The position numbers and the translations under genes are program-made. A stretch of 64,000 nt of DNA from Massospora cicadina. Lineage: Eukaryota; Entomophthoromycota; Entomophthoromycetes; Entomophthorales; Entomophthoraceae. Of the stretch, positions 1 through 39,898 are shown one piece after another; positions within the stretch are counted from its first letter, which is position 1; the number at the start of each line of letters is the position of its first letter. The notes beneath the pieces were generated by a model. That model had not been told where the DNA came from, did no database searches, and saw only the letters and a program-made list of their open reading frames with translations. The stretch spans positions 177,342-241,341 of the forward strand of contig JAKSZP010006633.1 in the NCBI GenBank assembly GCA_022478985.1, in the 5' to 3' direction.

Positions 1-1165
1 ATGCCATTCCTTGTATATATAATTTCGAAAAGTCATAGTGAGCCATCATATTGTTAAGCAAAAACCACTGCAGTGAGATAAGAAATATAATATTCCCCAT
101 CCTTTTGACATCATGTCATCTAATAATGTGCTTAATGATTGATTTTCTATACTATGTAAGGATACAACAGGCAGGTGTTTTTAATTGATTTTAACTGTAA
201 ACTGAAAATCCATAGTAGATCCAAGTGTTTTAGAAGTTGATTAGCTTCTACACATCATTCTTGACAGTAAAAAGAAACCAAAATTTACAGAGAATATGGT
301 AGGGCTTTCATTAAGTATTAAAACGAATACTCTAGTGTTGCCGCCATCACATTACCTGTAGCACCATGTTAAGAAGTATTTTTAAAAATGAGATTTAGAA
401 ATAAAAGGCTAATATGCTCCTTGATCGGTTATTGTTTACTGACTGTAGTTGCCACCAACTGAATACTAAGATCATTGGCTATAAGTAATTGTGAATAGCC
501 ATAAGTTGTCCAAAAATAATTGTCATGAGCTGAAAAACAAATTTGTCTTACACAAAGGAGCGTGAGCATTAGAACAAGTGAAATACCTAGTACAAGTGTC
601 CAGTTGCAACACCAAGGTACAAGGCCTGCACAACCTGCAGGATGATATGATTTTCTGTAGCTACAGTAGTATAGGACAAATAAACCTTTAGTTAACCTAC
701 TAGAATATGAACTTTGTAGATTAATAATCATGGTCAATTTCATTAAGTTGTTGAGGAAGCAAACACTTTTTTATATATAACTTCCAGATCTTTTAGCTTT
801 AACCTTTTTTCTTTGAAAAAATTGTTACTATATTACTGCCATCCATGTATATGACAAAGAAAGGACTTTATATAATGGTTAACAAGTGTCAGACTTCTGA
901 CATATTCACATAAACAGGATTTACACGGTGCTCTACTAGGTTGCTCTACTAAAGATTCTTCATGGTAGATATTTCAAGCTCATTTAGATCAATTTTGGGT
1001 TGACACAATTTTTTGATAGACTTTCAAAGATACTAAGTATTGAAGCCAAGTATGTGGTTAAATTTGTGTAATTTGACTAAAGTAAGTCCATTGGTGAATA
1101 GTTTGGTTGATACTAATATAAAATAAAAAAGTATAGCAGTAAGAAGGATTTATTCAAGCAACGCT
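1..1165. other. AT-rich flank, no gene recognised
   Basis: Left flank of element G. The sequence is AT-rich with stops in all frames. The longest open stretch is 104 codons on the minus strand (429-743), with one hydrophobic segment near its middle, no recognisable domain and no conserved neighbour. I treat it as chance. No RNA gene or repeat was recognised. Confidence 0.5.
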
Positions 1166-2366
1166 TGTTAGTCATGGTCAGATTAATAGCCACTGACAGA
1201 GGTTCAACACATGGAAGAAAAAGATTGTTGATTGCCCTTAACAGAGAAACCCAGTGCACATCTGTCATGGGACTTTGTGATAATCCCAGATATCTTGTTA
1301 ATTATCTTATTACCCATAAAACTAAGGCTTGTAAAACGAGACTAGAGGATTATGACGTTATTTTAGTATGGTAGGGTTACACTTGCTACTAGAAGATGAC
1401 AGTAAGAAAAGAAGCCTGATCACCCACAATACAGCCACAGGATATAAGGTTACAAGCTACCTCTAAGAGCTGGTTTATATGAGATGGGCGGGAGGTGAGG
1501 GTTCCATATAATTTTTTGATTTGTTAGTTTTTAAAGAAAAGCTGAATTCTCACCTATAGGCTTACTTTTAATTGAAGTTATGTTTGTCTTTTGTGTAACT
1601 CCAGCTTAGTGAGAACAGGATCTTCAAATTTTAATAAAGATCAAGTTAAACTATAAAACTAATTTTTTTGATAGCTCTTTATAAGAAAAGGTAAAACAGA
1701 TAACCCAACACCCTACAATTAGCTTGATGCTAGGTTTTAAGTTGATCTGAGGAGGGAAAAAAGCTACAAGCTAAATTTTTAAGATATGAATAGTTGCTGA
1801 CTTCAAGTAATGTGGAAAACGGTTTGAACACCAATTTTCCAATTTAAGTATTAAAAAGCTCATTTACCAATTCCCCATAACAACATTTTGGCATAGACTT
1901 GCACTATTATTGGAATTTTGGTTAAGTTTCTAATGTTAAATTTATTTTTGATAAATTTGGATTTTTTTTGCTGAGTTTAATCCCCATCTTTGATCTTTTC
2001 TTCCTTGACTGATTGCACGGATTTGAATTACTATAGGTAGATTTTCCTTTTGTGTCTCCCAATTATGCCACCTTTTATGGACGAGGAATGGTGGTTGTTA
2101 AGTTCAATTCACTAAAACTTATAAGTCTACACAGAGTTGTCTGATTTTTCTGTAGTAAGCTGTATATATTGATCTAGGGGGTTTAAGAGTAGTTTGTGGA
2201 AAGATTACATGGGAGTTAAGGTTTGGCTGCAGCTACCCATATCTCTTCCAGGGTATGCCCTAAGTCAGAGATCTTAGTAGGGTAAGGTCTTGGACTTTTC
2301 CCCTTATTAGTCCTGAAAGGGCGCAGTACCCGGTCCTAATTGCTGGGTGAAGCCAAGGGCCTTACA
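1166..2366 (-). repeat. 3' LTR of element G
   Basis: About 1.2 kb, colinear with 13216-14132 followed by 26864-27142. The best-matching blocks are around 1560-1660 versus 13600-13690, and 2225-2366 versus 26998-27142. The end is fixed by the minus-strand TGTAAGGCCC start directly after a polypurine tract. The outer edge (1166) is set by length and a TG dinucleotide only, so it may be off by tens of bases. Confidence 0.75.
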
Positions 2367-10533: not shown

Positions 10534-10549
10534 GAGAATGATAAACAAA
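10534..10549 (+). repeat. Target-site duplication of RP1, left copy
   Basis: GAGAATGATAAACAAA, repeated with one mismatch at 12452-12467 directly after the poly(A) end of RP1. Confidence 0.85.
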
Positions 10550-10638
10550 TCTTTCTTTGCTTCAATACCCATTTGAAGCTAAATTTGGATTTTAAAAAAA
10601 TACAAAAAACAACCGCTCAATCGAGCTAAAACTTACCA

Positions 10639-12369
10639 ATGTCAATGCAATTGACGCCTGCTGCCCCAGTTTAGGGTGGTGGTGCGCCGCCATCTGGCAT
10701 CTTTCAGCCTCCTCCAAAGCGCACTCAGGCTGGCTCTGCTAGCCCTCCCAACGCTATCAGGCGTTATGTCCCCCCTAAGGACTTGGTCCACCACCTCGCC
10801 AGCTCTCAGGTGGTGCTCCAGAGCCCTTTGGTGCTCCCACAGAGCAATTTGCGTTTCAGCCTCTGGGTCAAATATGGGAATCTATTCTCTTACACAAGCG
10901 CGGCCATCATTGAGATGGCTATGATTGTTTTCAAACCTGCCTGCTATATTGACTTCCACCCCTTTAAGGGTAATTTGACCTCGTCTTCTGCTCTGAAGCT
11001 GATGCAGCGCAGCAGCCAAGCTGTAATTAGTTTATAAAAAATTCCTTTGCCCAACATTCGCACCCAGCTCCTGAATGAGGCCACTTTGGTGGTCCAGTTC
11101 GCCAGGTTTCCCTCTTTCTTTTCCCCTGAACGCCTCCACCACAAGCTCATGGAGGGTTTGGCCATTTATGGTGCAGACCCCATGTTGCAGTTTGTGGTTC
11201 CCAATGAGGAGGATTGGTTGGCAGGGCCTTGCGCCTTTGCAATGATCCACCCATTTCATCACGACTCTCACCTTGTGTTTCCCCCTGTACCGTGATCAGA
11301 TCCGCCCCTGATCACCCATTCTGGGCATGCATTGAAAGCAGCTGCGCCATTTGCCCCTTGTGCTTTGAGCTTGATCACTCGAAGTGTAAGTGCCCCACAG
11401 TTGCCACTTCTGCCGCATCTGCTGCTTAGGGCTTGAGCGCCACCCCAAAAGTGCCTAGCCCCAATTTTTTGAATAGGTATTGATCCTCCCACCCCCAACG
11501 GTGGGGAATTCTGGCGCTGCTTCCAAAGCGGCAGCCAATCAAAATTTAAGAAATTTTAATCTTTTTGAAAATTTAACTGGATTATGGAATCCTGAGTCAA
11601 AGGCTGAACCAGCTTCAGCTGAGCTGCCATGGTCAACAGCATGTGGCCAATAAGCTCCAGCAACAGCCCAAACATATGGCTGGCCCACTGCTGGCCAAAT
11701 CAATCCATTCGAAGCTCTCAAAGGGATTGTTGAGGTTGAACGGCTGTGCCATGTGAAACCTTATTTTGCTTTAGAGGAGTTCTTCGTTGACCCTCCCAAA
11801 TTGCGTTCCTGCCATTTTTGTCTAAGAACGGGTTTCCCATTTATAAAAATATTAATGATATGGCAGTTGTGGCTGCAGCTGCCCCAGCCAACACCCTCCT
11901 CTACCAGCAACTCCATGGGGCAATAAACCCTCTTTGTCAATAATATTCCTATCCCAAATTTTCCTCATGATTTTGAGGAAGATGCAAAGTATGAAATTGA
12001 GGAGCTTGCTTTTGGTGCAAGCCGCACTTGAATCATTTCAGCAAAAACTTCTCTTTGTGACCCCAATTATCCCAAACCCGCTGGCGCATCAAGTCATATA
12101 CTTGTGTGCCAGCTATCATCATTTTTGCTGAGCATCAACTTGCTCAATATGTGGAGGCAATGGAAATCGCCAGCCTCATTAACAAAGAAGACCCCCAACT
12201 ATACCTCCATATGCCCTTTTCGTTGATGCTCTCACCCTCAATGCTTTCCACCATGTTCCGCCAGCTAAAGAAGGCGCTGTATAAAAGTTTCCCCAAAGCC
12301 TCCTCGCCATCTGACTTGGCTTCCTTAGCTGATAACCTAGGGGCCATATTAGGAATTTTTTATTTATGA
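10639..12369 (+). pseudogene. RP1 ORF: CCHC zinc-knuckle protein, function unknown
   Basis: Frame begins MSMQLTPAAP at 10639 and stays in one frame to 11293 apart from a TAG near 10672 and a TAA near 11035, then shifts. Parts in order: Pro/Ser-rich N-terminus; a conserved globular part (10783-11290; VQFARFPSFF, FVVPNEEDW, FAMIHPFHHD); CX2CX4HX4C knuckle CPLCFELDHSKCKC at 11352-11393; a poorly preserved middle; and a C-terminal part (12106-12369; AEHQLAQYVEAM, PKASSPSDLASLADN). Total about 575 codons. The same protein parts recur in RP2-RP5, so it was a real coding family. By analogy with LINE ORF1 it may bind RNA (inference). I do not recognise the globular domain. Confidence 0.7.
11352..11393 (+). 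other. CCHC zinc knuckle in RP1
   Basis: Reads C-PL-C-FELD-H-SKCK-C, an intact CX2CX4HX4C spacing. The same site is decayed in RP3 (31283-31324: second Cys to Tyr, His to Tyr, last Cys to Phe) and RP5 (50864-50905: His to Tyr, last Cys to Ala). Confidence 0.8.
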
Positions 12370-12451
12370 TAATCCCTTTTCTTGACCCACTTGCAAATAA
12401 AGATGCGTGGCGGCTCCCCCTTTTTGGATGGGCACCACTAGTAGTAAAAAA

Positions 12452-12467
12452 GAGAATGATATACAAA
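12452..12467 (+). repeat. Target-site duplication of RP1, right copy
   Basis: GAGAATGATATACAAA, one mismatch to 10534-10549. Confidence 0.85.
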
Positions 12468-13215: not shown

Positions 13216-14132
13216 TGTGCGGATCTTAACAGTAAGCATTGATATGGGTTGATTCTGGGAAAGAGGAGTTGGTAGGCAGCATTTATTAAAGTTCAATATG
13301 TACCACGGGCAAAGGTTGTTTTAAAGAAAGAAAACAATCTTTAGTCTTAAAGGTCTGTTCCCAAACCAAAAAGGATTTGAAACATAACGTAACTAAGGAA
13401 ATGTAGATGATTTTAGAGTTAATATGAGTGCGTGCCAAGATAAAACTGGATTGGTAGTGTGAGTACTTCAGCGCATATAATAATAGGCAAATACTACTCA
13501 ATTACGCCTCATCTGGATTCAGAGATTAGGAATGAAGATGGTTCATAGTTATTTTTGGAGTTGTTACGTTCTTAAATGGGATTAACTCTCGCTTAAAAGC
13601 TTCCTTTTAATTGAATAATAGGTGAGACTATTGTGTAACTTCACCTTAGTGAGAACAGGAGCCTCAATTTTGATAAAAAGTTTAATTTTTTAAAAAAAGT
13701 AAAGGTTTTTAGGAAAATTTTCATGAAGATATTAACACAGATAACTTAAAGACTTACCTTTATCAGGGTGTTGGGTTTAAGATTGTGCTTAGGAGAAGGA
13801 GGTACTAAATAATATTTAGATACTAGGGAATGATTGCTGATTTTAAATACTGATTACCATATAAACCCTGTTTACAATTCAATTATTGGTAATCATTGCC
13901 TAAATTTTTTCACAATGCAACAATATTGGCAAAGCTTCCGGTTTATTTTTGGGTTGTTTTGATGAGACTTAGATGTACAACTTCATTTTTACAATTATTG
14001 TTTTTGGTGCTGTGTTTGATCCCCGCTTTTTGTCCTTCCCCTTTTTCTTCTTGCCCAAATTTGATTTAACTATAAATATTTTCCCTCACAGGTTAACTCC
14101 TGATTAAGCCGTCTTTTGGGACTAGGAATGGC
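13216..14132 (-). repeat. 5' LTR of G, part 1 (up to insertion B)
   Basis: Colinear with 1166 to about 2090 of the left LTR (anchors TTTTAATTGAA and TTAGTGAGAACAGGA). It breaks off at the AGGAATGG motif shared with 2082-2090, where element B begins. The sequence resumes at 26864. Confidence 0.75.
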
Positions 14133-14599
14133 CTCTCACATGCCAGTTCTCTTAACTGTAGCTTGAGTTCAATAGAGGTCTTGAAACTGTAAGATAGCAA
14201 GAAGTCAAAAAATATGAAAAGATGGGGCGAAATAGATTAGTTTATTGAGTTATAAAGCGTCAATACTATAAGATGTGAGGGGGAGTAATGATAAGAGACC
14301 TTCATGGCCCTGTACAATCATGATCTTTATCAGTCTTACAAATCGGCAGTTTGGTCAAAACCCTTTTTGTTTTGAAACATCCTCATGACTGCAGTGGCGG
14401 GTGTCATGCATCTTGAGGTTTGCAAAGTGAGGATGAAATCCCTGAAGGAATCTCCACCAACTCTCATGCACGTGATTCTTCCTGATCAAAACTCTCATTG
14501 GTGCTTTCAGGGCCATGTTTCAACTACAATGACCCGAGAATTGACTTATTAAGGTTTATCAGGAGAAGGGTTTTGACTAGCTAAGCTTCTCAAAACCCA
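14133..14599 (-). repeat. 3' LTR of element B
   Basis: Homologous to 26406-26863; anchors are CTTAACTGTAGC (14151 and 26429), the TTTTGA-GAC(A)TCCT block, and CATGATTCTTCCTGAT (near 14470 and 26735). The right end is set by TGGGTTTTGAG (minus) after the PPT. Confidence 0.78.
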
Positions 14600-14612
14600 A
14601 TAACCCTCCTCA
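14600..14612 (-). other. Polypurine tract of B
   Basis: Minus strand TGAGGAGGGTTAT directly precedes the LTR start TGGGTTTTG, the same arrangement as in element A (GAGGGGTAT then TG). Confidence 0.7.
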
Positions 14613-14639
14613 AGATCCTGTCAGAGGTGGTATAGGGTT

Positions 14640-15690
14640 GAAGGAATCAGCCTTGTACTCAGTTCATCATTTTCCTATGATTGACATCAAAAATGGAGTA
14701 CTATGAGTCCATCTTATGAATGACCCTATGAGGTCCAGACCAAGGATGTTGAGATTGTTTGCTCAACCTCAGGGTTGATTATGATAAAAGAAAATGAGGT
14801 CACATAATTAAAAAATGGGCAAGTAGGGTCGGCTGACATTAAATTGAATTTTCCCATTTCTATGGTGGTGAAAATGCTTGCATAGCTAGAGCTTGAAGCC
14901 AGACAATTTCATCAGCTAAGGCCCTCATGGTTGTATCAGGGTTCTCAGGCAAAGATATTGAGCAGGGCTGAAAGCTGTTTGGTTAATGAGGAACACACTT
15001 ATATGAAGCTTGAGGTGGATACATTTTGATGATTTGGTGATTGCTTATCTAATAAGCAAGAAAGGTGCTGGGTATGTAATGGTTATAAGCAGATGGGTTG
15101 GAGGTGCCATCTTCTGCAAAATGAGAGAGGTTTCCATTAGCATGTCCCACACCCATTGATCGAAGGGTTGTAAAAGGCATTTAAAATGTAATTTGTTACA
15201 ATAAGTGAAGTTAGTTTTTGGATTACCTGCGAGGTAAAGCATAGCCCATTGTACAAAACTAAGGTTTGTGTACATCCATACTAGGTGAAAACGGATCTTA
15301 TGAGGAATAAGCTGTGGATTTTGCGAGGGAAGTGGCGATTTAAATTTCTTTGACTCGTTTAGTCAAATGGTCAATGACTAAGAGAATATACTTATGCCAT
15401 GTAACCCTGTGGGCAGAGGGAACACTACATCAAGCTATTGGCATTAAAGGGACCTGACGGGTCCATGACTAAGTGCTGATACTAGGGACTGGCCCATTCC
15501 TTGGATAGGAAAGTAATACAAGCATTTAGAACTTCTTAGATGGTCTTAATTATTAGGTCCCAGTAGCGTCGTTTCTTCAGCCATTCATGGTTCTTTTTCA
15601 CTGCCCCATGTCTCACAGTCATATGCTATTTTAGGATAACATCAGTTTGGGAAGAAGGGCTGACACAAGGGAGTCATTTCTTAATTTTTT
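14640..15690 (-). pseudogene. Integrase of element B (degenerate)
   Basis: Minus-strand remnants: YILLVIDHLTKRVKEI near 15345-15395 carries the first catalytic Asp. The second site reads LYNG near 15230, so that Asp is Tyr. The third, Glu-bearing segment is frameshifted (near 15110). A GPY-like end comes near 14730. H2C2 wording lies near 15550-15620. Many stops. It lies between RNase H and the 3' LTR as expected for Ty3 order. Confidence 0.65.
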
Positions 15691-16236
15691 TCTTATAACA
15701 CATTAAGTATATAATTTGAATATCCTGGGTCTTTTTTCAGAACTTGTCCTGGATCACAAGAGGCTCCAACTCCCATTGATTGGGCTAGACAAATAGATCA
15801 TACAGTTGGTCTTCACTCGGGTTAGGGAAGGATTTTAGCCTCCTCAAAAGACTATTGGCGCTCTGATGAATCGCTCCAACACTATGGACAATGGTAAAAT
15901 TGTAGTTATGTAGCCTTAGGGCCCATCTGACTAGCCGGCAATCTGGGTCCTTCATATGCTGCAGCCATCTGAGTGAATACTGGTCAGTGATAATGTTGAA
16001 AAGGTTACCATATAGGTAGGTCTTAAATGCTTAATCACCAATAAAATGGCTAGGCACTCGCGCTCATTACTGCCATAATTCCATTCAGCCTTCTTCAGGG
16101 TCTTGCTAAAGTAAGCACATTTGATTGATCTGATATTTATAGTGCTGAGCTAGTATGGATCTAATGGCGATTCCACTAGCATTAGTAAATAATAATAAAG
16201 GTTGATCAATGTGAGGATAATTTAATTAGTTTTAGA
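15691..16236 (-). pseudogene. RNase H region of element B
   Basis: LFTNASGIAIRSILAQ near 16150-16200 matches the RNase H start, with the usual Asp read as Asn. FNIITDQYSLRWLQHMKD near 15960-16015 and VRWALRLHNYNF near 15895-15940 match the later part. Stops interrupt it. Confidence 0.68.
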
Positions 16237-17211
16237 TCAAAGAGTTTTACTAAGCGCATTAAAATCTTGCACTTGTTCAGGCCACCACTTGAAAGGCACA
16301 TTCTTCTGTAATAGGTAGACCAGTGGCTTGGCCAAGTCAGCAAACTGAAGAATGAACTGATGGTAATAGCCCACCATACCAAGGAATACTTGAATTTCTC
16401 TAAGGCTCTGAGGGCGCGACATCTTCTAGATGCTATCAACTTTATCTGGGGGGATGGATACCATCTTTGAGACCAGTGTCTGAGGAGCTCCATTTCAAAT
16501 TAAAGAAAAGCGCTTTGACAGCTTAAGCTTTACTGAAGCCTTTATCATATGGTTGAAGACCTTCTAGGGGTGTTTCACATGACCATTGAAGGTTCACAAG
16601 CAGTGATATTGTTAAGGGTACTTAATACACAGTATAGTTTCAAGTTTTTCAGTATTTCATTCATGAACGTTGAAAAGTGGGTGGGCGCATTACATCGTCC
16701 CTGAGGCATCCTCACTGAATCAAATAGAACCTCTTTGGCTATAATCACAAATTTGGATTAATCTTTTAGGGGTAACTCTACTTGCCAATACCCGCTTGTA
16801 AGATCCATAGTGGAGAAGTATTGAAGCCTGGCAAGCAAGCAGAGAGATTCTCAATCTTGGGCAAGGGATAAATGTACTTATTAGTAATGAATTAAAGCTG
16901 TTGATAGTCCATCACTGCATGATGGCTGCCATACTTCTTCCAAACTAATAGGAGGGGTAGGGCCAAGGACTATGCAAAGGACCTAATAGCCTGACTTCAA
17001 GTAGTTGCTTAATCTCGTCAGCCACCTAAGCCTCTTCAACCTTACTTATCCAGTGGGAATGGAACTGAATGGGTGGAGCGTACCCAATCTTTACGTGATG
17101 CAGGAAACCACTCATTTTTCCAAGATTATTCGTAGAGGTTGAAGAGAGGTTCCTACTTTCCTCCAATAATTTCTTAACCTGGATTTGTTTCTCAATAATG
17201 AACTCTTGCAC
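16237..17211 (-). pseudogene. Reverse transcriptase of element B
   Basis: The thumb/linker part is the clearest (16237-16422): IQVFLGMVGYYHQFI, then FADLAKPL, then a PFKW...Q motif, all typical of Ty3 RT. Fingers and palm lie rightwards (to about 17211) with many stops. The YxDD catalytic box is not readable near 16590-16640. It was primed from the PBS at 26388-26405. Confidence 0.7.
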
Positions 17212-18249
17212 AATACAGGTCCTTACTAGAGCTACTGATGGTGACGTTTAAAATCCAGGATCTATAATCTTCCAAAGTTGCAGATGTCATTGATGTCCTT
17301 TACAGGAAGGAGGAGATAATAAGCGGCTGGAGTATAAGGGACCACTATCCTATATCTGTCAGTAATGTTAGCCAATAACACCAAGATGGATCCAACATAA
17401 GCGAGATCTAAGGTTCTGGACAGGTCAAGATCTCCTTAATGTATGAGTTATCCAGCCCCAAGCTTTAAGCTGTTTTCTGGAGAGTTTTATGATATGGACA
17501 GTGATATGACGATACCTGGGACTTTGGAGGTATAGTAATCCTCTTAGGTAAATAGATTGGCATGATTTTGTGCCAATCTACAACAGGAGGGGTATTCATA
17601 TGCATGAACCCCTTACATGATACTTGAGTTAAATAATCAGGCCTTCACTCTCCAACAGGCAAGCCTGATCTTTGACCTTTAACATGGTGTCATTTGAGGT
17701 TTCTAAGTCCAGGGGTTTGGTTTCCTAGAGGAATAAGAATCCCCTATCATAGAGCACGACATCCAAATAATTATTAAAGAAACTGCGTTTCTAGAATAAG
17801 GTCATAGCATAAGTTGTCTAATGCAATGGTGGGGGTATTCACCTAAAGCTTCTTAAAGCGAAGGGGAAGAGAGGAATAGTAACAAATGGATTGAGTGTAT
17901 GTGGCCCCTCCATGACATATTCCATGTAATGGGGAAAGTCTGGAGCAATTTTGATGCATTTCATTAATAGAGACGAAATGACATTCTCAAGGAACCACTT
18001 CCAACATTAATGTGGAAATTTTTGTGGACGAAAATGTCAATGTGAGTGACTAAGCTCCTGAAAAAAACAGGGATAGAATGAGGAACATGTGAGATTCATC
18101 TGAATAAGAGTAAGCAGTATCATGTTTTTTAGTAAAAACAGGTACTAGATCATCCTTTGGTATGACAGAAATAGGCTCAATTTAGGTCACTTAACATTCT
18201 TTGGGCAGTACAGAAATTGAAGCTTGAAACGCCTCATCCTTTATGCTGA

Positions 18250-18431
18250 TGGCCCTTTTCATGATTCATTAGCAAGTTTCTTCCAACAAGTCTTAAAGCT
18301 ATGACAGAGTTTATTGCAGAAGGAGTATCAAGGTTGGGGATTCCTCTGGTTCTTGACAATATGGGCCCAAGGGTGACTGGAAGAGGCTGATGTTGTTGAC
18401 TTGGGATGCAAGATAGAAGCGGAGATTTCAT
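18250..18431 (-). pseudogene. Retropepsin of element B
   Basis: Minus-strand frame contains IPNLDTPSAINSVIALRLV, aligned with the protease active site; the third residue of the D-T-G triplet (18321-18329) is Pro. A basic/Pro-rich linker precedes it. Inactive by inspection. Confidence 0.6.
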
Positions 18432-19891
18432 TATGTGACTCTTTATTCTCTAGATTCAGGTAAAGCTATTCTTCTAACTGATCTTGTTCATTTGGACCTC
18501 AGTATAAGATCACAATGTGGAAATGACAGCAGTGATGGCATCATCCATGGTAATAAAATTAGTGATCACTAAAGGTTGCGTTTAGCCATAGAGTAGGCTG
18601 GTGAACTCCATATGAATTTCTTCTTTCTTTAACCGAATGTCCATGGATTCCTGATTCTGATTGGGCAAGGACTGGTTGCTTCGAATTCCTAGATTAAGGT
18701 GGTAAGGACTTGTTCCCAGGTATGACAATTTTAATATGAGGAGTCATAATCTCCCAGGAGGTACTATTTGAAAATGAAGTAATGTGCTTTACCTCCTGCT
18801 AGTCTATGGATTTATCTATCAGGTTTATCAAAATATTCATAAATGAGACAATACTTTTCTGCTTTGGGATAAGCTTCCTCTTAACCATAGGCTTAAATTT
18901 AGTCACAAGAGGGTTGTAAAATAGTATTGATGCCAAGAACCTGTGAAGGCTCAAAAGAACTCAGTTTCAACATAGTCACTAGGGCTCTGTTGATAAAAAC
19001 GTCATATTCATCCCTCCTAAAACTTTAGAATGTTATCCCAACTTTTGTTTAAAGAACTAATGGAGGCTTTATTAGAATCTTCTCATTTAGTGCTTGGATC
19101 TCATTACGCTGGAGGAGCAGTTGACTCTCAAAGCTGACCAAACCGGTGTCAAACCTGAGGCAGGTTTAGCAAGTTAAGTGAAGCGAACAATGATGAGCTT
19201 AGTGAAAGCACTCAGTTACCCCAATTCATCCAACATGGCCTAAATAAAAACTTTTGGATCAAGAGGCACTTCGTCTACTCAGAGCTTGCAGCCGTGGCTA
19301 TATTGAACATTTGACCTTATAAAGCATCAAGAACCATAACCATGTATTGTTTCCAGGGGTCATTAGGATTTCCAGATGTAGGCACCATAGGACTGGAAGG
19401 TTATTGTGGCCCATAGGGAACTTCAGACCCCTGTCACCTGAGGCCCTTTTAGCCCTACTTACAGAAGCAATATAGTGGGTAGCACCTGGGTGTGTTAATG
19501 GAGGGTATGCACAAGTTCTTTTACTTGTTCGAGGCACTGGTGCTAGGCAGTCTTGGGAGCTACATACATTGACAAAGCTTAACCTTGATGGTAACCCAAG
19601 ATTTCATTATCTAACATGTCGATCTTACTATGAGCAATACTAACTAGGAAACAGTTACAGACAATAGCCTCTTAATTGTTGTGGACTAAGGAAGAGACCG
19701 CTTTATAAAAGTTGACAATAAAAAAATTAGGGTTTGAGTTAGCTCAAGTTGTCATGATACTTCATGGTAGTGCAACCCGAATATTGTAGGAGGTGGTGCA
19801 TTACCAGATGGACAAAACTTCAGAGATAGTATTTTTTAATGCCAAGTCTCCTGATGGCTGCATAGCAAGGTATAATTTCTCACATTTTAGA
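18432..19891 (-). pseudogene. Gag remnant of element B, 3' part
   Basis: Minus-strand region upstream of the protease with short fragments only. No zinc knuckle could be read with confidence. The remaining 5' part lies at 26083-26387, on the other side of element A. Confidence 0.4.
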
Positions 19892-20518
19892 TGTTAGATT
19901 TCTACCCAAATGGCAGATTTGGATGTGTCAGATGTCAGGAATCAAACCCCAAACCAACAAGCCCAAACTTCTGTCTGGGACAATCCCCGACAAATGTTGA
20001 CAATTATCAAAGTTGGAGATCAATCCCAATTTGATCTTAAAGCCCAAACTTCTGTTGGGGACAATCCCCAACAAGAGTCAACTATTATCAAAGTTGAAGA
20101 TCAACCCCAACTAACACAGTTGAATCATGCTCCTTTTGAGCTACCCAACCTCAGGGTTCAAACCTGAGCTATGAGACAAGAGTGAGAAATTCAACTGAGA
20201 TATTTTGGCTTTTACCAAATCCTCAATTCGTTCGTTTTATTAGATCTAGGCTTGGGCTGCTTAGACTTCCCTGAAACACATCCCCAATTACCTAATATAG
20301 CTGGTATTAAGCTACCAAACTTTATGCTTTCTCTCCTTTTCACAATTTTAAGTTAAAAATTGATATATTTTATTAGGAATTGACTATACAAAACTATTGT
20401 CTGGAAGAAAACTTCTCGACCAAGAGAAGAAAAAACAAGCAATATAACACCCTAAAACTTTGGGCCCCCTGGCCTCAAAATATTGAAGGAAATGAGATAT
20501 TACACCATGTTCCCAACA
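19892..20518 (+). repeat. 5' LTR of element A
   Basis: 627 bp, aligned along its whole length with 25450-26082 (anchors ATTAGATCTAGGCTTGGGCT, CTCTCCTTTTCACAATTTTA). It contains an 81-bp tandem duplication (19959-20120). Several pyrimidine/purine transitions separate it from the 3' LTR, indicating an old insertion. Confidence 0.92.
19959..20120 (+). repeat. 81-bp tandem duplication in 5' LTR of A
   Basis: Two imperfect units, each starting AAGCCCAAACTTCTGT and continuing GGGACAATCCCC, ACAATTATCAAAGTTGGAGATCA-like. The same two-unit structure with the same spacing occurs at 25521-25682, so it predates this insertion. Repeated units in the U3 part of LTRs often carry promoter or enhancer sites (general knowledge, not shown here). 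Confidence 0.85.
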
Positions 20519-20522
20519 AAGC

Positions 20523-20540
20523 TGGTGCTCCCTGCCAGGT
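20523..20540 (+). other. Primer-binding site of A
   Basis: TGGTGCTCCCTGCCAGGT, four bases after the LTR end. The first eight bases match the PBS of B, C, D, F and H; the rest is diverged. Confidence 0.72.
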
Positions 20541-20584
20541 ACACCCCAAGTTCATGGTGAAATATAACAATTAAAAACCCAAAT

Positions 20585-21600
20585 ATGAACAATAACAATC
20601 CAGCGTATGATCTCATTTTAGACAAAGAACGCCTTAAACTCTTGGATAATTTCCCCGCTATGATGCTCAGGATGGAGCAACGAATTCTCACCTTTGAGCA
20701 ACACCAACTCAAACTTTGAGATGTGACTACAGAGCTCAAAAGCAAAATTTGGTATCTATCCCCTCTTGTTGCCACCATATCAGCCCATCGTGCCACCCAC
20801 AATCAGGTAGACTCAATAATTGAGGATAACAACACCTTACAAAATAAAGTGGACGCCCTCCATCCTTACGACATGTCTAGCAATAACAGTTCCCCTTTAG
20901 GTTAAAATGGTCCCCCTATGTCAAAAACGTTGTTCAACCTTTATCCCCCCAGTGGCATGTACAAACCATCGTTCAAAAGAGAAGTATGTCCCAGGGGAAG
21001 GGAGCATCTTTTCTCTCTTATTTTGTTATGAAAATTCTATGGAAGGAGCCACTGACATCCAGCAACTCAAACCTAATTAAATGTCTTGGTTGCATGGCTC
21101 AATACATTATGGTCCCCATCTGATGCATTGCCACACTTGGACTGATGCCAAGACTGCCTTGCTTTGTGAATTCTGGAGCGACTTAACTTTAACCAACCAA
21201 AAACAGACCTTTATGGGTATTAGCCTTTAATCTGGGGAAATATCATCAAATTCGCCCACCATTTTTACCTTAAGGCACAAACTCTAGTTGTAGGGAATTA
21301 TTGTACATTAGACGATGCCATCACTGCTGCATTGTCAGGATTTATAATATGCCTAATATAGTACTTTATCTTAAAGCTGTGGTCTAGCTTTACATCCCTC
21401 CTCCATATTAAAGAGGCTTTATTGGAAATTCTGGCCAAACTACATAAGCCTGTTGGACCACCTCATTTTCACACTAATAAGCTCAGTCCTAAGTATTGAC
21501 CGTTACACCCCCCAATTCGCCTAAACCTGAATTATACTGCTTTCATTGCAGAAGAAACACTCACACTGTAGCTTACTGCCGCATCCTTCAACTTAAGTCA
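20585..21600 (+). pseudogene. Gag of element A
   Basis: ATG at 20585 opens MNNNNPAYDLILDKERLKLL, with an early stop near 20718 and later frameshifts. A capsid-like part follows (GMYKPSFK; ENSMEGATD; HGSIHYGPHLMHCHTW) and aligns with element F gag at 49302-49535. It ends in a zinc knuckle C-FH-C-RRNT-H-TVAY-C at 21538-21579, an intact CX2CX4HX4C. Gag packages the RNA into particles. The knuckle is in a different frame from the start codon, showing at least one frameshift. Confidence 0.78.
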
Positions 21601-21642
21601 GCAAAAGATCAGTCAGTATAGGGTAAAAGGCTCCCTATACTG

Positions 21643-22520
21643 ATGATCAAACAAGTGCCTCAAGACCCTTGTTCTAGCTCTAGCTCTATCCTCAGCACTT
21701 CAGCTTGTTTTGTGTTAGCTGCCCCTGCAGAAGTTGACGTACCCTTTTCTATTCAAGGAAATAAACACCTCCCACTCTCTTACTTTTATGTTGGTCAATT
21801 ACCCCATAAAACTTTTACAGTCAAATCTTCTATAGAAATTCAAGCGCTGGCAGAAAAAACTTTCAAACGCATTGAACAGCCCAAGCTTGGCTACAGCAGA
21901 ATCCTCCACTTGCATCATTGCAAATCCCTACCAACAATCTACAAGCTGCTAATTCCAGTTCAGATCTTCAGTGGTTTGAGTCAAGGTAGTCATACATAAG
22001 GTTAAAGTCATGGCATTAATAAATACCAGTTCACAAGGTAACATAAAATCCTCAAAACTTATCCAAAAGATAAAAATGGTTCCAGAATTGATCCATGAGG
22101 CTGAATATGGAACAGCAGGTAGTCAGTCTACTAAGGCGATTGGAGCGTATTCTACATTACCCCTTTAATTCAGGAAACACTTAATTACTACCCCCATAAT
22201 CACACTAGAAAACAAAATTATGATTATTAATTGGGGTCCAAATGATGCGAGAGTTTAACTGCATCACCAACCACACGGAAAAATACCTATCACTACTAGG
22301 GTATTAGATTCCATTGTATTTCAACTCCCCATCAAAAATAAAGAAGCCCCTGTAAACGGACATGCTTATTCAAATACCCATCCTCCATTTGCAAAATTGA
22401 GTATCAAGTCTTAGGGGGAAAAACTAAGTTACCCCTCAGAGGCTGTGGATTCCAAAGAGGGGATCCCTCCATATACCCCTATTCTATTATAATACCCTCA
22501 GGCTCACAAGTTATTGTAGA
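21643..22520 (+). pseudogene. Protease region of element A
   Basis: Open from 21643 to 21999 and then broken. The active-site segment at 22010-22060 reads MALINTSSQGNI: the catalytic Asp is Asn and the Gly is Ser (22022-22030), both explained by G-to-A changes. It is located between the zinc knuckle and RT as in Ty3. Inactive. Confidence 0.68.
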
Positions 22521-22985
22521 TATTGGGATTCAGATTTTTACCTCTCCTGGTCAAATTTTGGAGCTTAGTGGACATCCAAACCCTTCCATCAAGGAAGCGT
22601 TGATCTTCTCAGGGATTTTGGATCCTGTCTACAGGAAATCTATTTCTATTCTATTAAGGAATTCAACACTATAACTCTCCAAGTCCCACGCATGCCCCTA
22701 TCACTTATGTAAAACTATGTCCCATTAAGAGTATTACCAATGTAGATTGTTTTGGATCATTATAGGATTTAGGATTCTATCTCCCACCCACCATAGCTTT
22801 GGTTGACAGTAGAATTGGTGATAATCTTACCCTTAATAAATGCCAAGATGTCAAAACCTCCACAAGGAATATGGCGATATTTTTTCCTTGGGACCAAGTG
22901 ACTATGGAAAAATGTCTAGGTAATACATTAAATTAAAACTGAGGATTACCCTCAATTTAAATCCTGACCATATTGAAAATCCAAA

Positions 22986-23640
22986 GTGGAGGAAGAACAA
23001 GTGGCCTTAAAGTTACAGCAATTGGTGGAGTCAGGGTTACTTGTACCTTCCAAAAGCCCATGGGCCTTCCAACTCTTATTAATTCAGAAAAAGGATGGTG
23101 GTCACTGGGTTGTTGTGGATTATCACCGCCTTAACTCTATATTTTGCAAAGATGGTTACCCTCTGCCAAGTATAGACAGCTCTTTACGCTTAATGTTGGG
23201 GTCCCACTATCTATCAGCTATGGATCTCGCCAGTGGATACTGGCAAGTAGATCTGTCCCCAGAAGATTGGGCAAAATGTGCTTTTATCACAAGTGAAGGA
23301 CTATTTGAGCTTACTTGAATGCCTCAGGGTTTATTTAATGACCTTGCTACCTTCCAACGCACTATGGATGGACTACTAGGCGATTTAAAACTTCCTTTAT
23401 ACTAGTTTATCTTGATGATATTACCGTTTTTTCAAGAACCTTTACTGAACATCTAGATCACCTCATGCAATTCTTTCATCAGTTATGGCAATTGTCATTA
23501 AAAACAAAGCTGTTGAAATGCTCTTTCTTCCAGAGTGATAGATTTTTTAAGTCATAAGGTCAGTAAAGCTAGAATATCCCCGATGGATGATAAGGTCTTG
23601 GCTATTGCTAAGATGACCCCCTAAATCCCTACAATATGTA
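22986..23640 (+). pseudogene. Reverse transcriptase of element A
   Basis: A 110-codon intact stretch (22986-23318) carries the fingers and palm: SGLLVPSKSPWAF, DGYPLPSID, LSAMDLASGYWQVDL, KCAFITSEGLFE. After a stop at 23319 comes MPQGLF, then a frameshift, then VYLDDITVFSRT, with the YLDD box at 23408-23419 intact. It copies element RNA into cDNA. Broken only by point stops and small frameshifts, so it is the most readable RT on the plus strand. Confidence 0.85.
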
Positions 23641-24300
23641 CTAGTTTTCCTAGGAATGGTGGTCTATTATTTTCAATTTATCCCCCAACTTGCCAACACC
23701 TCTGAACCTCTTGTATATTTATTAAAAAAGGATACCCTTCCAGTGGAAAGAAGAGCAACAGCAGGCCTTTGACCTATTATGCATCTCTCTCTCCAACTCT
23801 CCAGTACTTATAAATCCCAACTTTGATAAACCCTTTCTCCTTTTTGCCAATGATAGTGATATAGCCATCGGAGCCATCCTATTGCAGCATAATGAAAACT
23901 TGGTAGACCATCCTATCGCCTACTATAGAAAAAATTTTAACCAGAGCTGAACGCAACTATAGTGTTACGGAATGCAAATACTTGGTCCTATTTTTGGCTA
24001 TCAAGCATTTCTGACCTTATCTATATGAGAAACACTTCACTATAATTACTGAACATGATTTCCTGCAATAACTACAGCAAATAAAGAACCCCAACGGTAG
24101 GTTAGCCTGATGGGCGTTAAAACTTCAAAACTACAACTTTTCCATCATCCATCAACCTGTGCCCATACACCAAAATGAAGATTGCCTATCCTGGCTGCCC
24201 ATATTAACTATAAGTGCCCCTGAGGATGATCTACTTTATGACCTCCTGACTCAGCTGCACTTATGGAAAGATGAATACCCAACCTTTCAAAAGGAACTAG
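23641..24300 (+). pseudogene. RNase H region of element A
   Basis: FLLFANDSDIAIGAILLQH near 23843-23895 marks the RNase H start, followed by RAERNYSVTECKYLVLFLAI (23946-24005), EKHFTIITEHDFLQ and WALKLQNYNFSIIHQ (to about 24150). Frameshifts separate the pieces. Confidence 0.75.
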
Positions 24301-25434
24301 CAAATTAATTGGCAGATCCTCAAGTCAAAAATGGTCAACTGTGCATACTTATGTCTCTAAAATGGGTGCCCTATGTGCAACCTTCAGAGCGAACTGACGT
24401 CATATTGTAGGGACATTGGCAAGTCAGCCGCAGAGGAGTTTGTAAAAAACTTATAAGTGGCTCAATACTCAATGTTACTGGGAAAGAATGATTGTTAAAA
24501 GCCATGATGTATTGGAGTCTTGCCTGGTATGCCAAAGCCAAGCTGGACCTAATCCCTTGTTACAACATCCAGTGGCTCACCCTGTGAACCCTTCCAAACT
24601 ATTAGCATTATTGTTGTGGGACCTCTCCCTCAAGCCTCTAATGGTCACCAGTTCCTGCTCCTGTCTATGGATCATTTAAATAAGTGGATTGAAGCTGTAT
24701 CGCTACCTTCCACTTCAGAAAAAGCTACCGCCACCTTATTATATAATTGGATTATCACCCAGCATGGATGCCCTCACAATATACTCTCTGATAATGGGCA
24801 AAATTTCCAATAATCACTGGTGAATGATTTAGCCAAGCTGATGGGATCCACCCAGGTATTTTCCACTCCCTACCATCCTGTCACTAATGGAATGGTGGAG
24901 CAGGCGAATGGTACCCTAATGGCCACTATTTGTAAAATGGCCACAACTGACCCTCTGCACTGGCCCCAACATTAGCCTAGCGCAATTCTGGCCTATCAAA
25001 TAAGCTACCACCAAATCATTAAAATGTCTCTCTTCCAGGCTTTGTATGGACGAAATTCCCAGTTGTCCTACAGAGTGCAGGCCAAGTTATATCAGGCTTC
25101 CCTCAATGCCCCTGAAGTTACTATGCAAAGCATTGCCAATGAAATCATCCAACTCCAAGCTCTAGATTCTGAGAACTTATCAGCTACTACCGGTAGAGTA
25201 ACTAACTAATTTAATGATAAGCATAACCTCCTGCGCTCCTTCCAGCTGGGTTACCTAGTTCTTTTCTAACATAGTCATCCTAAAGTTCAACACAATAGAT
25301 TGGAAACAACTGGTTGGGGCCTTACAAGGTCATTTATAAGTGGGGCAATGAACACTCCATCATAGAGGTCATTCATGCTACAGTAGTAAGCTGCATCCAT
25401 AGTAGCTTCTTCCATCTGTTTTCCCCTGCGCCAA
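24301..25434 (+). pseudogene. Integrase of element A
   Basis: H2C2 remnants (GHWQVSRRGV near 24412; CLVCQSQ near 24520), then the core: LLLSMDHLNKWIEAV with the first Asp (24655-24700), ILSDNGQNF with the second (24780-24810), and NGMVEQANGTL with Glu (24890-24920). All three catalytic acids are readable, though a stop lies at 24811. A GPY/F-type end, GPYKVIYKWGN, is at 25315-25350. No chromodomain seen. It inserts cDNA into host DNA; this copy is dead. Confidence 0.82.
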
Positions 25435-25435
25435 G

Positions 25436-25449
25436 ATCTAGAGGGGTAT
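25436..25449 (+). other. Polypurine tract of A
   Basis: ATCTAGAGGGGTAT ends where the 3' LTR begins (TGTCAGG). Composition and position fit a PPT. Confidence 0.75.
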
Positions 25450-26082
25450 TGTCAGGATTCCTATCTGAACAGCAGATATGGACGTGTCAAATGTCAGGTT
25501 TTCATCCTGAATTGACCAAAAAGCCCAAACTTCTGTCAGGGACAATCCCCAACAAAACTTGACAATTATTGAAGTTGGAGATCAATATTGATTCAATCAA
25601 AAAGCCCAAACTTCTGTTGGGGACAATCCCTGATGAAAGTTGACCATTGTCAAAGTTGGAGCTCAACCCCAACCAACATGGTTAAATCATGCTCCCTCAG
25701 AGCTACCCAACCTCAGGATTCAAACCTGAGCCTTGAGACAAGCATGAGAAATTTAACCAAGATAATTGGGCTTTTACCAAATCTCTGATTCAATAATTTT
25801 ATTAGATCTAGGCTTGGGCTGCTTAGTCTTCCCCCAAAACACCTCCTCAATTACCCTTATATAGCTGGTATTAAGCTAATAAACTTTACGCTTACTCTCC
25901 TTTTCACAATTTTACGTTATAAGTTCTATATTTTCATTAGGAATTGCCTCTAGAATTCGTATCTTGAAATAGACTTCTCGACCAATAGAAGCAATAAACA
26001 GGCAATCCAACACCCTGAAACTTCAGGTACTCTGGCCTCAGAATATTGAGGGATATGAGGTATTACACCAGTGGTCCTAACA
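25450..26082 (+). repeat. 3' LTR of element A
   Basis: 633 bp, partner of 19892-20518, with the same internal 81-bp tandem duplication (units starting 25521 and 25602). Confidence 0.92.
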
Positions 26083-28427: not shown

Positions 28428-28439
28428 TTACATTAAACA

Positions 28440-30248
28440 CTTCTCAATCAAAATTAGACATATTCAATAGTAAGTTTACAACTATTGCTATCCCATTGAA
28501 TTTAGTTCCTGAAGATCTTCTAATCTGACGCTTAATTCTCATGCATGGGATGGAGGTAAGCCTCCTCCTAGCTACTTTTCTCCGCTCCAAAAGAGCTTTT
28601 AAGCTGGGTTTAAGCCAACTAATCCCACCAGTCGTTTTATCCCCCTTAGGACCTAGCTGAGCATCTTATGCACTCCCAGATGGTGTTTAGAAGTTCCATG
28701 GTGCTCTCCTAGAGCAATTTGCCCTGATGTCTTTGGTTCAAGTATAGAAACTCTTTCATTGAGTGAGTGCCTCCATAATTGGGAGTTGCACAAGTGGTGT
28801 AAAGTACTTTCAAATAAATATAACTCAGCTTCAGTAGCATTTTGCTCTGTGATTCTCTAGCGAAGACTAGGTCCTGAGTGCGGCAATGATGCCATAAAAG
28901 ATATAAAAATACATCAGTTACAACTTAATAACTCAGTTGCCAGTCGCTGCCTATCTGGTGGTTCAGTTTGTTAGGTTTCCCAATTATCACCTTTGAACAG
29001 CTCTGCTATGTACTCTGGGAGGTATTAGCTGGTTATGGCGCTTATTCCATCATCTGATTTGTGGTTCTCAATAGACGTAGTCGCCTCAAAGGACTTTTTC
29101 CTTTGTGACTATCCACCCCTTCCATAGGGATACTCAATATGCAGATACCCCATAATAATTCCTTCCATCATAACTATCCAAATTTCTTAGATCAAAAAGG
29201 CGATTCTCTTTTCCTCTTTTTGTTTAAATTTTTCATATTAAAGGAATAATTTCCTTCTCATGATACCATAGCATTTGCTTCTCTTCCCTCTGGTATTGGC
29301 CCCACTGCCAAACTATCTGGATTCTTTGAGTTAAGTTAGATTGTCCTTCCCCTACTTAAAACGCTGCACCCGCTCCTCAAACTGGAAAGGCTAAAAAATC
29401 CAATCTTTGAAAACAAACTTGGAAAATTTTTGCTCAATTTCCTGCCAGATTACTTTGTCAACCTTCATGTGCTAACCATTCATGCCACAATTTAATTGAC
29501 TTTTATAGCTGGCCCATGTTTACCCATTTCAAACAAATCAGAATTTTTCAAATGGGGTGATTAATATTGATCCTATTACCTAAATCTAGATTTTGACAGT
29601 CCAGGTTTATTTAGCCTCCTAAGTCTGATCCTCAGCGTTGATTCCACACTTTGGAAAAGCTTTACTACCCATTAGACTAACTATCAATATGTTGCTATAA
29701 TGGCCTCTGCTCATCAATGTTCCTCTTTTCCAAGTCATTCACACGTCCATGGAGCCTCTTCTCAATTGCTATCTTATAAAAGTCCCAGCTGACTTCTTTG
29801 AGGAAGCTCAGAATAAAATTGATGAACTTACGTTTTCTTGGAGCTGAGGATGCACCAATTTAGAAAACATCTTTTTTTCTATCTCAACTTATTCTAAAAT
29901 CATCACCAGAAAGATAGCTTTTCTTATGAGATAGAACTTTTTTAAACTTATGAGTTCCACCTTGCCCAGTACGTTGCAGCATTCTGATTTTCTATGCATC
30001 CTAGATAAAGCAAATTAGCTTTTCTTACCTTCTTCCCATGCCGCTGATTCCCCCAAACCCATTCTGTCCGCTCTCTTGTGTGCCCTTAAGTCCACATTGG
30101 ACAGAAATCCCTCTTAACCAATTTTTAAGTAATATTGGTTGCTAAAACAAAACTGCCATGGAACTGTATTGTGGTATATATCATTTATGATTGTACACTT
30201 AAAGAAACGCATGGTCCCCCATATTTGGGTACAAGTATTACTAAAAAA
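28440..30248 (+). mobile_element. RP2: old copy of the RP retroposon
   Basis: Follows RP1 from about its codon 1 region (CCCCCTTAGGACCTAG at 28640; GGTGCTCTCCTAGAGCAATTTGC at 28700) through the globular part (28960-29140) to the C-terminal part (29960-30110; CTTGCCCAGTACGTTGC). It ends with the family 3' terminus GCATGGTCCCCCAT...TACTAAAAAA at about 30209-30248. Stops in every frame; the zinc knuckle is unreadable. The start is uncertain by about 60 bp and no TSD was identified. It lies directly behind the SINE. Confidence 0.72.
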
Positions 30249-30800
30249 CAGAAAAATGCCTCTTAAAACCTATGACCTTTGAAGGCATGTACTTAATGTA
30301 AGCTCAATATTAGAAATTCGTAGGAGCAGAAAAATCATCTTTTTAAGGATGCTATCTATGTTTGCACTTTAGACAAAATTTTGCTTTATTAAAATAGATT
30401 TAATTATAAAGAAACTTTTTGCGTTCTAGAGATAATATTTGTATAAATATTGTATATGTAATTGAGTGCAAATTCAATTTTGGATACTTGAGGAGCTCTT
30501 TTTTATTTGCTATAAGCAGCATTCATGCTTTTCTGTTTTAAACTACCTTTTAGTAATTTAAAATATTTATAGTTAAGTTATATAAACTTTATTTTGTAGT
30601 CAGTTTTTCTATACTATTAGTATAGTAATATTCTTATCTCTTTTAAAAACTCTATTGCTACCAATATGAATTATGTAATTTATGTAATATTTTATTATTC
30701 ATATCAAACTTAATCTTAACATCTTACAACTTTATTCTGGTGGTTTGTATAATATAAACAAAAGTTATTTAAGTAATTTTTAAATCACACTTAAGCTTAA
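30249..30800. other. AT-rich spacer, nothing recognised
   Basis: Between RP2 and RP3. Very AT-rich; no ORF, RNA gene or repeat recognised. Confidence 0.5.
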
Positions 30801-32311
30801 AGCTTTAGGCGTGAGTATGAACTTTACCCTATGCAAGTACAGTCATCACTGAGATGCCTCATGCGGTCTTTAATCCAATATGTCTAATTGAAATTATTCC
30901 CTTCATGGGGTACTTTGACCTTGGCTTCGCTTGTGAAGCCCACGCCATGGTCGCGGCAATAATGTTGCTAGGCTAAAAAGGTACGCCTATCCCCACCACT
31001 CTCACTCAACTGTGAGCAAACCCATACTGGTAGTTTTTATGCAGGTTGCCAACTACCATCCATGAGCTTTTCCACCATGAGCACTTGGAGAGTTTGGCCA
31101 CTTATAGTTCCAAAAAAGTCCTGCAATTTGTGGTTTCATTAGGGCCAGCTGCTTGCTGGGCATCACGACTTTGCAATGATCCACCCATTTAAAAGTCATA
31201 CTCACAATTCAATTACCCTGCACTGTGATAAGCTTTGCCTAATACTATCCATTCTGCTTACATAGAGAACTTCCGCACTATCTGCCCCTTCTACTTTGGC
31301 TTAGACTACACAAAGCATAAGTTTCCAACTTCACTGCTGCTGCTACCTCTGGCCCTCCTACCTCCAGCATCCCACTGCCACCGCGTGGTAAAGTTTTAAC
31401 CTAACCTTAACCCTTCTGCCCCCTAACCTTGGTGGGCACAGCTTCTCCTGCGCCAGCCAATAATTTCAGAAAATTTTAACTGTAAAGTAGCAAATGTTTG
31501 CTTGGGACTAGTTTATTTCCTTGTCTGTGGTTAGTGGGCCAAGTGCTCTCACCCATCTGATCATCAAAATTGCTGGCAATATTTTACTCGTCTTCTGCCA
31601 TTTAGATCTCTTTAATGGTTAAATGATGAGCAACCTTATTCTATCAATACTGTTTACATTGGACAATTATTAAATCTGCCCTGACCCTGTTTCCCAGTGA
31701 TGCTTCCACCCTTGCAAGAGCTTTTCCAAATACAAGTCCTCCATCCTTCTCCATCAAAGCAGCCGCTGCACCTTTCACATTCTATGATTAGCCGTCCATG
31801 TGGTCACTGAGACACTATTGAAACTAAAATTCCTGTCCCAGTTTCCCATATGACTTTCATAATAGACCATGGACAAAATCAAAGTGCTTTCATATGCTGG
31901 GAGGCATTCCTGTATAGATTCAGTTAAGTCATATATGTTTTCCCCACTACCCTTAATCCCGCTATAAATTTAAATGTTTTGCTTATGTGCCTCTTAAAAG
32001 TTATTCCAAGTCTCAGCTTTCCCAGTACGTCAAGGCACTGCACACTGCATGCTTTTTGAATAGGAAAATCCAACATCCTTCAACATTCTGCCCCATTCTG
32101 TTTATTCATCAACTCATACTTTTCTTCTCTCACTTGTTTTATCAGATACTCACCAGATAAATATTTACCAACCATCTTCATCATCTGTTATATCTTCTCA
32201 GGCTTGTTGCTGTGGAACCATGTAAATAATTATAAAAAGTTTAATTTGGCTCTTACAAATAAAAAAGCGTTTTCGCCCTTCACTTGGGTTAGGTCCTTAT
32301 AGTACAAAAAA
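30801..32311 (+). mobile_element. RP3: 5'-truncated copy of the RP retroposon
   Basis: Homology to RP1 starts near RP1 position 10866 and runs to the 3' end: CTGCAATTTGTGGTTTC near 31127, CATCACGACTTTGCAATGATCCACCCATTT at 31165-31192, the former zinc knuckle at 31283-31324, and the 3' terminus with AAATAAAAAAGCG and ...TATAGTACAAAAAA at 32300-32311. The flanks TTAAGCTTAA (30791-30800) and TTAATCTTGA (after 32311) could be a decayed TSD. 5' truncation with an intact poly(A) end is typical of LINE-type copying. Confidence 0.72.
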
Positions 32312-36962: not shown

Positions 36963-37478
36963 TGGAATTCAGGCAGAATAGAATATAATCTATTGACCAG
37001 TTTACATAGGAGCAAATTCACACTGATGAAACGGAAAGGTAATATGATGCTCGCCATTACTCAAACAATTATAATAAAATAAAAAAAGGAAGCAGAAAGC
37101 TAAAATAACAATAGACTTTTTTATCTATGACAAAGTTCACTACCATTTTATCCTAGAAATTTCTAATGTAGAGTCCATTATGGGTTACTAAAAAGCTCCT
37201 TCCCCCTCCTTTTCTTCTCCTTTTTCACTTATCTCTTTGGCATACTTTCTGCTCCATCTAGTTATATACTCATCTTCTTCAATTTTCTTTATACTCCTCT
37301 CTTCATTCAATGTTTCAGAAGAATTCCCATATTCAGCTTAGGTCAGATCGCTTATTGTCAACCAAGTCCAATCTTACTAAATCATAAAATCCTCTCATCT
37401 TGATTTCAGCAGATAACTGATGAATTTTTAATCGATAATCTAGGCTTAACATCAATTCATATATATGTATTTCTAACA
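36963..37478 (-). repeat. 3' LTR of element C
   Basis: 516 bp, aligned with 44568-45091 (anchors ACACTGATG(C/A)AACGGAAAGG, AGGAAGCAGAAAGCT, AAATCCTCTCATCT). Ends ...TTCTAACA before the PPT. Confidence 0.85.
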
Positions 37479-37490
37479 TCTTCCCCCTTG
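37479..37490 (-). other. Polypurine tract of C
   Basis: Minus strand CAAGGGGGAAGA then TGTTAGAA, the LTR start. Confidence 0.78.
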
Positions 37491-39888: not shown

Positions 39889-39898
39889 AATGTAACAC
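39889..39898 (+). repeat. Target-site duplication of RP4, left copy
   Basis: AATGTAACAC, identical to 40340-40349. Confidence 0.85.

Follow-up and report, generated by a model that had tools for sequence, protein, structure and literature searches.

ORF1-only RP retroposons in the Massospora cicadina genome: two families with 3' tails matching those of resident LINEs

RP elements are very probably non-autonomous, protein-coding non-LTR retroposons that encode only a LINE-type ORF1, carry 3' tails matched to those of resident LINEs and are mobilised by these LINEs in trans. RP1 is a full-length element of 1902 bp at positions 10550-12451 (plus strand) of the window, by which we mean the whole 64-kb stretch of DNA that was analysed. 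It is flanked by target-site duplications (TSDs) at 10534-10549 (GAGAATGATAAACAAA) and 12452-12467 (GAGAATGATATACAAA) on the plus strand, which agree at 15 of 16 positions. A second full-length element, RP5, spans 1918 bp on the minus strand (49798-51715) between 15-bp TSDs at 49783-49797 and 51716-51730 (14/15). Neither unit contains a reverse transcriptase (RT) or endonuclease (EN), and in these respects the first-pass annotation described both correctly. It had also taken RP1 and RP5 for two copies of one family, and this does not hold: their nucleotide identity is 47-49%, and between the ORFs of the two families identity is 45% (531 aligned codons).

Five RP copies in the window (RP1 to RP5) are matched by the family HMM. 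RP2 (28430-30248, plus strand; HMM match 28623-30105; 5' end approximate) and RP3 (30587-32311, plus strand; HMM match 30779-32067) are more diverged and have LINE-B-like tails, a likeness judged by eye for RP2, which ends in ..CATGGTCCCCCATATTTGGGTACAAGTATTACTAAAAAA, and reflected in a tail score of 33 for RP3. The flanks of RP2 hold no convincing TSD, and the 5' end of RP3 was set from a weak one (13/14) that begins 6 nt beyond the tail. RP4 (39904-40339, plus strand) is a 5'-truncated RP1-family copy, 80% identical to RP1, with a 10-bp TSD, AATGTAACAC, at 39889-39898 and 40340-40349. At 52856-52870 (plus strand), an insertion of 15-20 nt consists of the LINE-B/RP1 tail terminus alone, ACCATCTAGTACTAAAAAA, inside a 20-bp TSD (18/20; 52836-52855 and 52871-52890). 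It is apparently an extremely 5'-truncated retroposition, since a terminus-only insertion is expected if reverse transcription begins at that end and then aborts.

The window also contains several decayed Ty3-like pieces (14000-26000, 37000-42000 and 54000-64000), most of them judged by eye from ORFs; examples are a minus-strand rve match at 57065-57592 (E 1e-6) and a minus-strand RVT_1 match at 58517-58897 (E 6e-25). Two 81-bp tandem repeats of 1.9 copies each (19959-20110 and 25517-25666) have similar units 5.5 kb apart, and probably sit in related elements.

The assembly that was searched comprises 1.47 Gb in 16,968 contigs. With RP1 DNA and a 259-aa piece as queries we sampled 38 RP1-family loci, of which L009, a duplicate of L003, was dropped. 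Full-length copies, 1885-1916 bp long and with the same two ends, occupy 27 of the 37 distinct loci; the remaining 10 start later, are interrupted or are missing an inner part. TSDs (score of at least 10) flank 30 of the 37, compared with 0/37 in a control that used another locus's 3' flank; the other seven fall below the threshold. The first eight copies show 85-88% pairwise identity in a star-like pattern. Two RP1 searches gave 10,633 and 43,604 first-look candidates, which are candidate counts, not copy numbers. Across the 27 full copies, C>T changes are found at 29% for CpG, 13% for CA and 7% for other C, which looks like methylation-driven decay.

The RP5 family has at least 41 matches (40 scored of 9,406 candidates), the others being 71-83% identical. 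Thirty loci were fetched, 23 of which reach the 3' end; 11 of these have TSDs and 12 fall below the threshold, with 0/23 in the control. Twenty loci cover the unit in one piece, at 1871-1982 bp. Inserts of ~0.8-0.9 kb lie within the unit in L060, L065 and L068, and no LINE-A ORF2 was found in them. RP loci are not in telomeric arrays; copies are interspersed with TSDs.

These samples bear on the proposal that the short form is the real element. The genome search recommended by the first-pass annotation showed that 27 of 37 RP1-family loci share one 5' end and a length of ~1.9 kb; full-length copies (1885-1916 bp, or 1871-1982 bp in the RP5 family) are too short to include an RT. Longer copies enclosing an ORF2 were not encountered in a search with LINE-A ORF2: similar sequence occurs in 5 of the 68 fetched RP loci (L019, L034, L040, L054 and L056), each time outside the RP unit.

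Alignment of the 27 full copies yields an RP1-family ORF of 565 codons. A stop stands at codon 566 in 25 of the 27, and no earlier codon has stops in more than eight. In RP1 itself the ORF (10639-12324, plus strand) is broken, with 8 stops and 10 gapped codons in the family frame, and the family HMM matches it in pieces at 10639-11286, 11277-11474, 11420-12079 and 11788-12324. The first-pass annotation had given RP1 an open zinc-knuckle ORF of ~575 codons and an 82-bp 3' UTR. The knuckle is confirmed; both lengths arose because RP1 has lost the family stop, and the family 3' UTR is ~125 bp.

The family ORF comprises, in order, a probable RRM, an RRM-like part, a CCHC knuckle, a linker and a C-terminal region. 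In RP1 the probable RRM lies at 10864-11083 (plus strand; approximately codons 76-148), and the knuckle, CPLCFELDHSKCKC, can be read directly at 11352-11393 (plus strand). Its spacing, C-x2-C-x4-H-x4-C, is common to RP1, the RP5 family and the resident element LINE-A. The C-terminal region is common to RP1 and RP5; in RP5-family loci the HMM matches it within 380-549. The family-majority ORF of RP5 contains two internal stops. Identity between the two families at codon positions 1, 2 and 3 is 0.557, 0.653 and 0.375 over the 531 codons, and 0.509, 0.621 and 0.342 over the 161 codons of the C-terminal part. This pattern shows that the protein, its C-terminal part included, was under selection, although some of the signal may date from a period as a LINE ORF1.

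The N-terminal domain is probably an RRM, judging by middling scores on a predicted structure: the model has a beta-alpha-beta-beta-alpha-beta unit (pLDDT ~51-80, in a whole model of low mean pLDDT, 51), and the Foldseek matches listed are nearly all RRM proteins, none of them at E 0.001 (VIA Z <8). Hence the globular domain that had been called unrecognised can probably be named, and it is the C-terminal region that still lacks a match. That region is modelled as helical at low confidence (mean pLDDT 45), and its best Foldseek E of 0.63, no clear match, carries no information on fold novelty. An AHH nuclease match to the C-terminus (E 0.16) was under the cut-off and was dropped. Pfam returned no family at E <= 10 for the 565-aa read-through and two pieces. 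A protein search with the RP ORF, limited to relatives that have 5-residue words in common with its first 500 residues, gave 0 of 7995 scored candidates at E <= 0.001.

In most RP1-family copies the frame is lost at two homopolymer runs, an A run near codon 135 and a C run before the knuckle, and many copies are short of one base in each. The first alignment of eight copies seemed to need two shared -1 shifts, which raised the possibility of programmed frameshifting. We rejected this explanation: the shifts fall in these runs of A and C, and copies whose runs are interrupted keep the frame, which we take as a sign of slippage or of errors in the assembly. Of 20 RP5-family copies, 12 have gained a base close to the second shift site, a difference likewise read as an indel. 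A functional frameshift site at the RP homopolymer runs could nevertheless exist.

The closest relative found for the RP ORF is ORF1 of LINE-A, a resident two-ORF element reached through three matches in a Pfam endonuclease search; its ORF2 includes EN, RT and a weak zf-RVT. Relatives of a LINE-A RT piece, at ~32-40% identity, occur in Leptobrachium, Lucifuga, Rhizopus and plants among the 120 of 3449 matches listed. Within LINE-A ORF1 the RP protein matches the knuckle (E 0.002) and a stretch resembling a second RRM (E 0.031), and the family HMM finds the same two parts in the same order (E 0.51 and E 2.2e-4, respectively; best of 20 shuffled controls, E 1.8). Identity is 27-30% in the matched stretches. 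The comparison used one LINE-A copy, which is broken, and ORF1 of that copy shows no similarity to the RP C-terminal region.

RP elements do not end in a long poly(A), as had been thought; their termini are fixed, being TACTAAAAAA or AATAAATTTAAA-like, and RP1-family copies end in ..TAGTACTAAAAAA. The RP1 tail (12396-12451, plus strand) includes AATAAA, a GTGG..CCAC hairpin and TAGTA[C]TAAAAAA. Its match is the 3' end of LINE-B. A search with zf-RVT gave at least 141 matches (150 scored of 7,268 candidates), and from these comes LINE-B (C6071), a single copy picked for its 1007-aa open frame, of which one tail was read. The first stop read in its zf-RVT frame is ~70 bp before ..CTCCCCCTTGGGTTGGGACCATCTAGTACTAAAAAA, which is the RP1-family end; it is this proximity that assigns the tail to LINE-B, with ~330 bp in between unread. 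The 37 RP1-family tails score a mean of 46.1 against the LINE-B tail (minimum 32), compared with at most 14.9 in 100 shuffles. Against LINE-A they show no match (12.5; 50 shuffles, mean 12.0 and maximum 12.6).

RP5-family tails resemble those of the LINE-A group instead, the RP5 tail scoring only 12 against that of LINE-B. The 23 RP5-family tails and eight LINE-A tails give a mean score of 28.0 (100 shuffles, mean 13.2 and maximum 14.2), and the best pair is identical in 40 of 47 columns. A second LINE of this group, in locus L034, has ORF2 pieces ~52-58% identical to those of LINE-A. Its tail is closer still, with a mean of 42.6 against RP5-family tails, compared with 31.3 for one LINE-A tail, and in a 29-nt core the median is 24 and the best 27 of 29 identical positions. 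The earlier suggestion that RP is an ORF1-only LINE derivative moved in trans is thus supported by ORF1 homology to the resident LINE-A and by tails in common with LINEs.

Two loci were considered as holding a two-ORF parent of RP and rejected. L034 has its LINE and a truncated RP1 on the same strand with the LINE's own tail between them, and in L056, also on one strand, an RP tail and ~370 bp separate ORF2 from the RP; with tails in between, we read LINE and RP as neighbours in both loci. Between the RP5-family copy and the LINE of L056, a stretch at ~1130-1400 (minus strand) looks by eye like a tRNA-headed SINE with a LINE-A-like tail and a possible TSD, TTAAATATAACTA; ARAGORN and Rfam (E <= 1) gave no match there.

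The tails can form hairpins, as predicted from their sequences, and the proposed stems differ by double changes between RP and LINE. Within the ungapped 29-nt core, the outer four positions pair in 30 of 32 cells for LINE-A (16-22 with slid partners) and in 79 of 92 for the RP5 family (18-48 with slid partners). Hairpin pair 3-27 is A-T in all eight LINE-A tails, and T-A in 21 of 23 RP5 tails and in the L034 LINE. Where LINE-B has the stem GATG:CATC, most RP1 tails have GTGG:CCAC: 22 of 33, the anchor having been located in 33 of the 37 tails. This count leans towards pairing because the 5' partner was chosen as best fit. RNAalifold support for the hairpins is weak: column shuffles were as good in 40 of 100 cases for RP1, 24 for RP1 with LINE-B, 1 for RP5, 10 for LINE-A and 4 for RP5 with LINE-A.

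We infer the following route of mobilisation. RP RNA would be translated, and the ORF1 protein would coat, probably in cis, the RNA from which it came. A partner LINE would supply the ORF2 protein, which would then bind the tail hairpin in trans, nick the target and prime reverse transcription; the partner would be LINE-B for RP1 and, for RP5, a LINE belonging to the LINE-A group. Such insertion would leave TSDs of ~10-22 bp and some 5'-truncated copies. Action on its own RNA is the most likely reason for which the ORF1 protein was kept. The evidence agrees with mobilisation in trans by LINEs that recognise a specific tail, which is the stringent mode described for zebrafish L2 LINEs (PMC4176376).

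How RP elements arose can be viewed in several ways. The chances are about even that a single old ORF1-only lineage diversified and, in the manner of SINEs, exchanged its 3' tail so as to follow one LINE or another. Homology between the RP1 and RP5 proteins runs the length of the ORF, C-terminus included, whereas the tails of the two are unrelated and each matches a different LINE; the more diverged RP2 and RP3 carry LINE-B-like tails. However, this history looks the same as separate origins until more LINE ORF1 sequences and a tree are at hand. A fuller version, to which we give slightly less than even odds, is an old, SINE-like lineage of protein-coding parasites in which a cis-acting ORF1 would be held under selection and swaps of the hairpin tail would change the copying enzyme.

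Somewhat less plausibly, the two families could have arisen separately by internal deletion, one from LINE-B and the other from a member of the LINE-A group, each keeping the 5' end, ORF1 and tail of its parent; RP1 may be such a derivative of LINE-B. The tails in common and the ORF1 homology agree with this, and HAL1 is described as having arisen independently several times in mammals (PMC5753468). However, ORF1 identity is only 27-30% when tails are identical in up to 40 of 47 columns, which argues that RP5 is no recent deletion of that LINE-A, and the C-terminal region common to RP1 and RP5 went undetected in LINE-A. A multicopy host gene with processed pseudocopies, whose protein has a host function, is very improbable: the missing RT, the conserved ORF and the lack of a homologue among the 7995 scored candidates would suit it, but not the LINE-type tails, the LINE ORF1 homology, the 43,604 first-look candidates (again not a copy number) or the existence of two families equal in size and anatomy. 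That RPs form no family of their own and are merely 5'-truncated or internally deleted artefacts of an ordinary two-ORF LINE is least credible of all despite the ORF1 homology to LINE-A, and is refuted for the sampled loci by the common 5' end in 27 of 37 and the uniform length, which recur in the second family.

Non-autonomous, LINE-mobilised retroposons of the kind we propose have parallels in several known systems. The ORF1 protein of mammalian L1 has a coiled coil and is not known to have a knuckle. HAL1, a non-autonomous LINE derivative of mammals, is described as encoding only ORF1p (PMC5753468). RP resembles it in encoding ORF1 and no ORF2, and to this extent the analogy drawn in the first-pass annotation is apt. 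However, the RP ORF1 combines a CCHC knuckle with a long C-terminus and is kin to LINE-A ORF1, and RP has a fixed LINE-type tail where HAL1 has poly(A), with different RP families going with different LINEs. The parallel with HAL1 is one of content, because recognition apparently depends on a specific tail, in the manner of LINE/SINE pairs.

Stringent LINEs such as zebrafish ZfL2 are reported to need a cognate stem-loop, and SINEs to pair with such LINEs (PMC4176376). RP is likewise non-autonomous and has a 3' tail in common with its partner LINE, but it is 1.9 kb long with a conserved 565-aa protein, whereas SINEs are short and non-coding. No Pol III head (tRNA, 5S or 7SL) was found in the window by ARAGORN (0) or by Rfam at gathering score (0), searches that a decayed head could escape. 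Unlike autonomous LINEs, RP has neither EN nor RT in the element.

HeT-A of Drosophila is described as a non-LTR element without an encoded RT (PMC5537684), which has a Gag protein and maintains telomeres (PMC3776773). RP is also non-LTR, protein-coding and without RT; unlike the telomeric HeT-A, it occurs as scattered copies that have TSDs and show 5' truncation. EKA genes of powdery mildew are reported to derive from ORF1 of the LINEs Satine and Kryze, with a CCHC-type domain, and EKA effectors are described there as having lost the half that bears this domain (PMC4641428). RP also consists of many copies derived from a LINE ORF1 with CCHC, but its knuckle is retained, and it forms a complete mobile unit flanked by TSDs.

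In the open-licence literature we noticed no ORF1-only LINE family outside mammals and Drosophila, a tentative negative, nor any element that combines a coding ORF with SINE-like tails suited to different LINEs. If a very abundant ORF1-only group has partner LINEs that can be identified, then parasites of LINEs can be protein-coding, and the pairing of tails predicts the LINE by which each RP is moved. RP is also a natural experiment on the role of ORF1p, whose retention when ORF2 is not kept points to a requirement in cis. The ingredients are known singly, in the ORF1-only HAL1, the RT-less HeT-A and the tail-sharing SINEs, and it is their combination that looks new: RP looks like SINE/LINE parasitism carried out by a protein-coding element, and not like the poly(A) type of HAL1.
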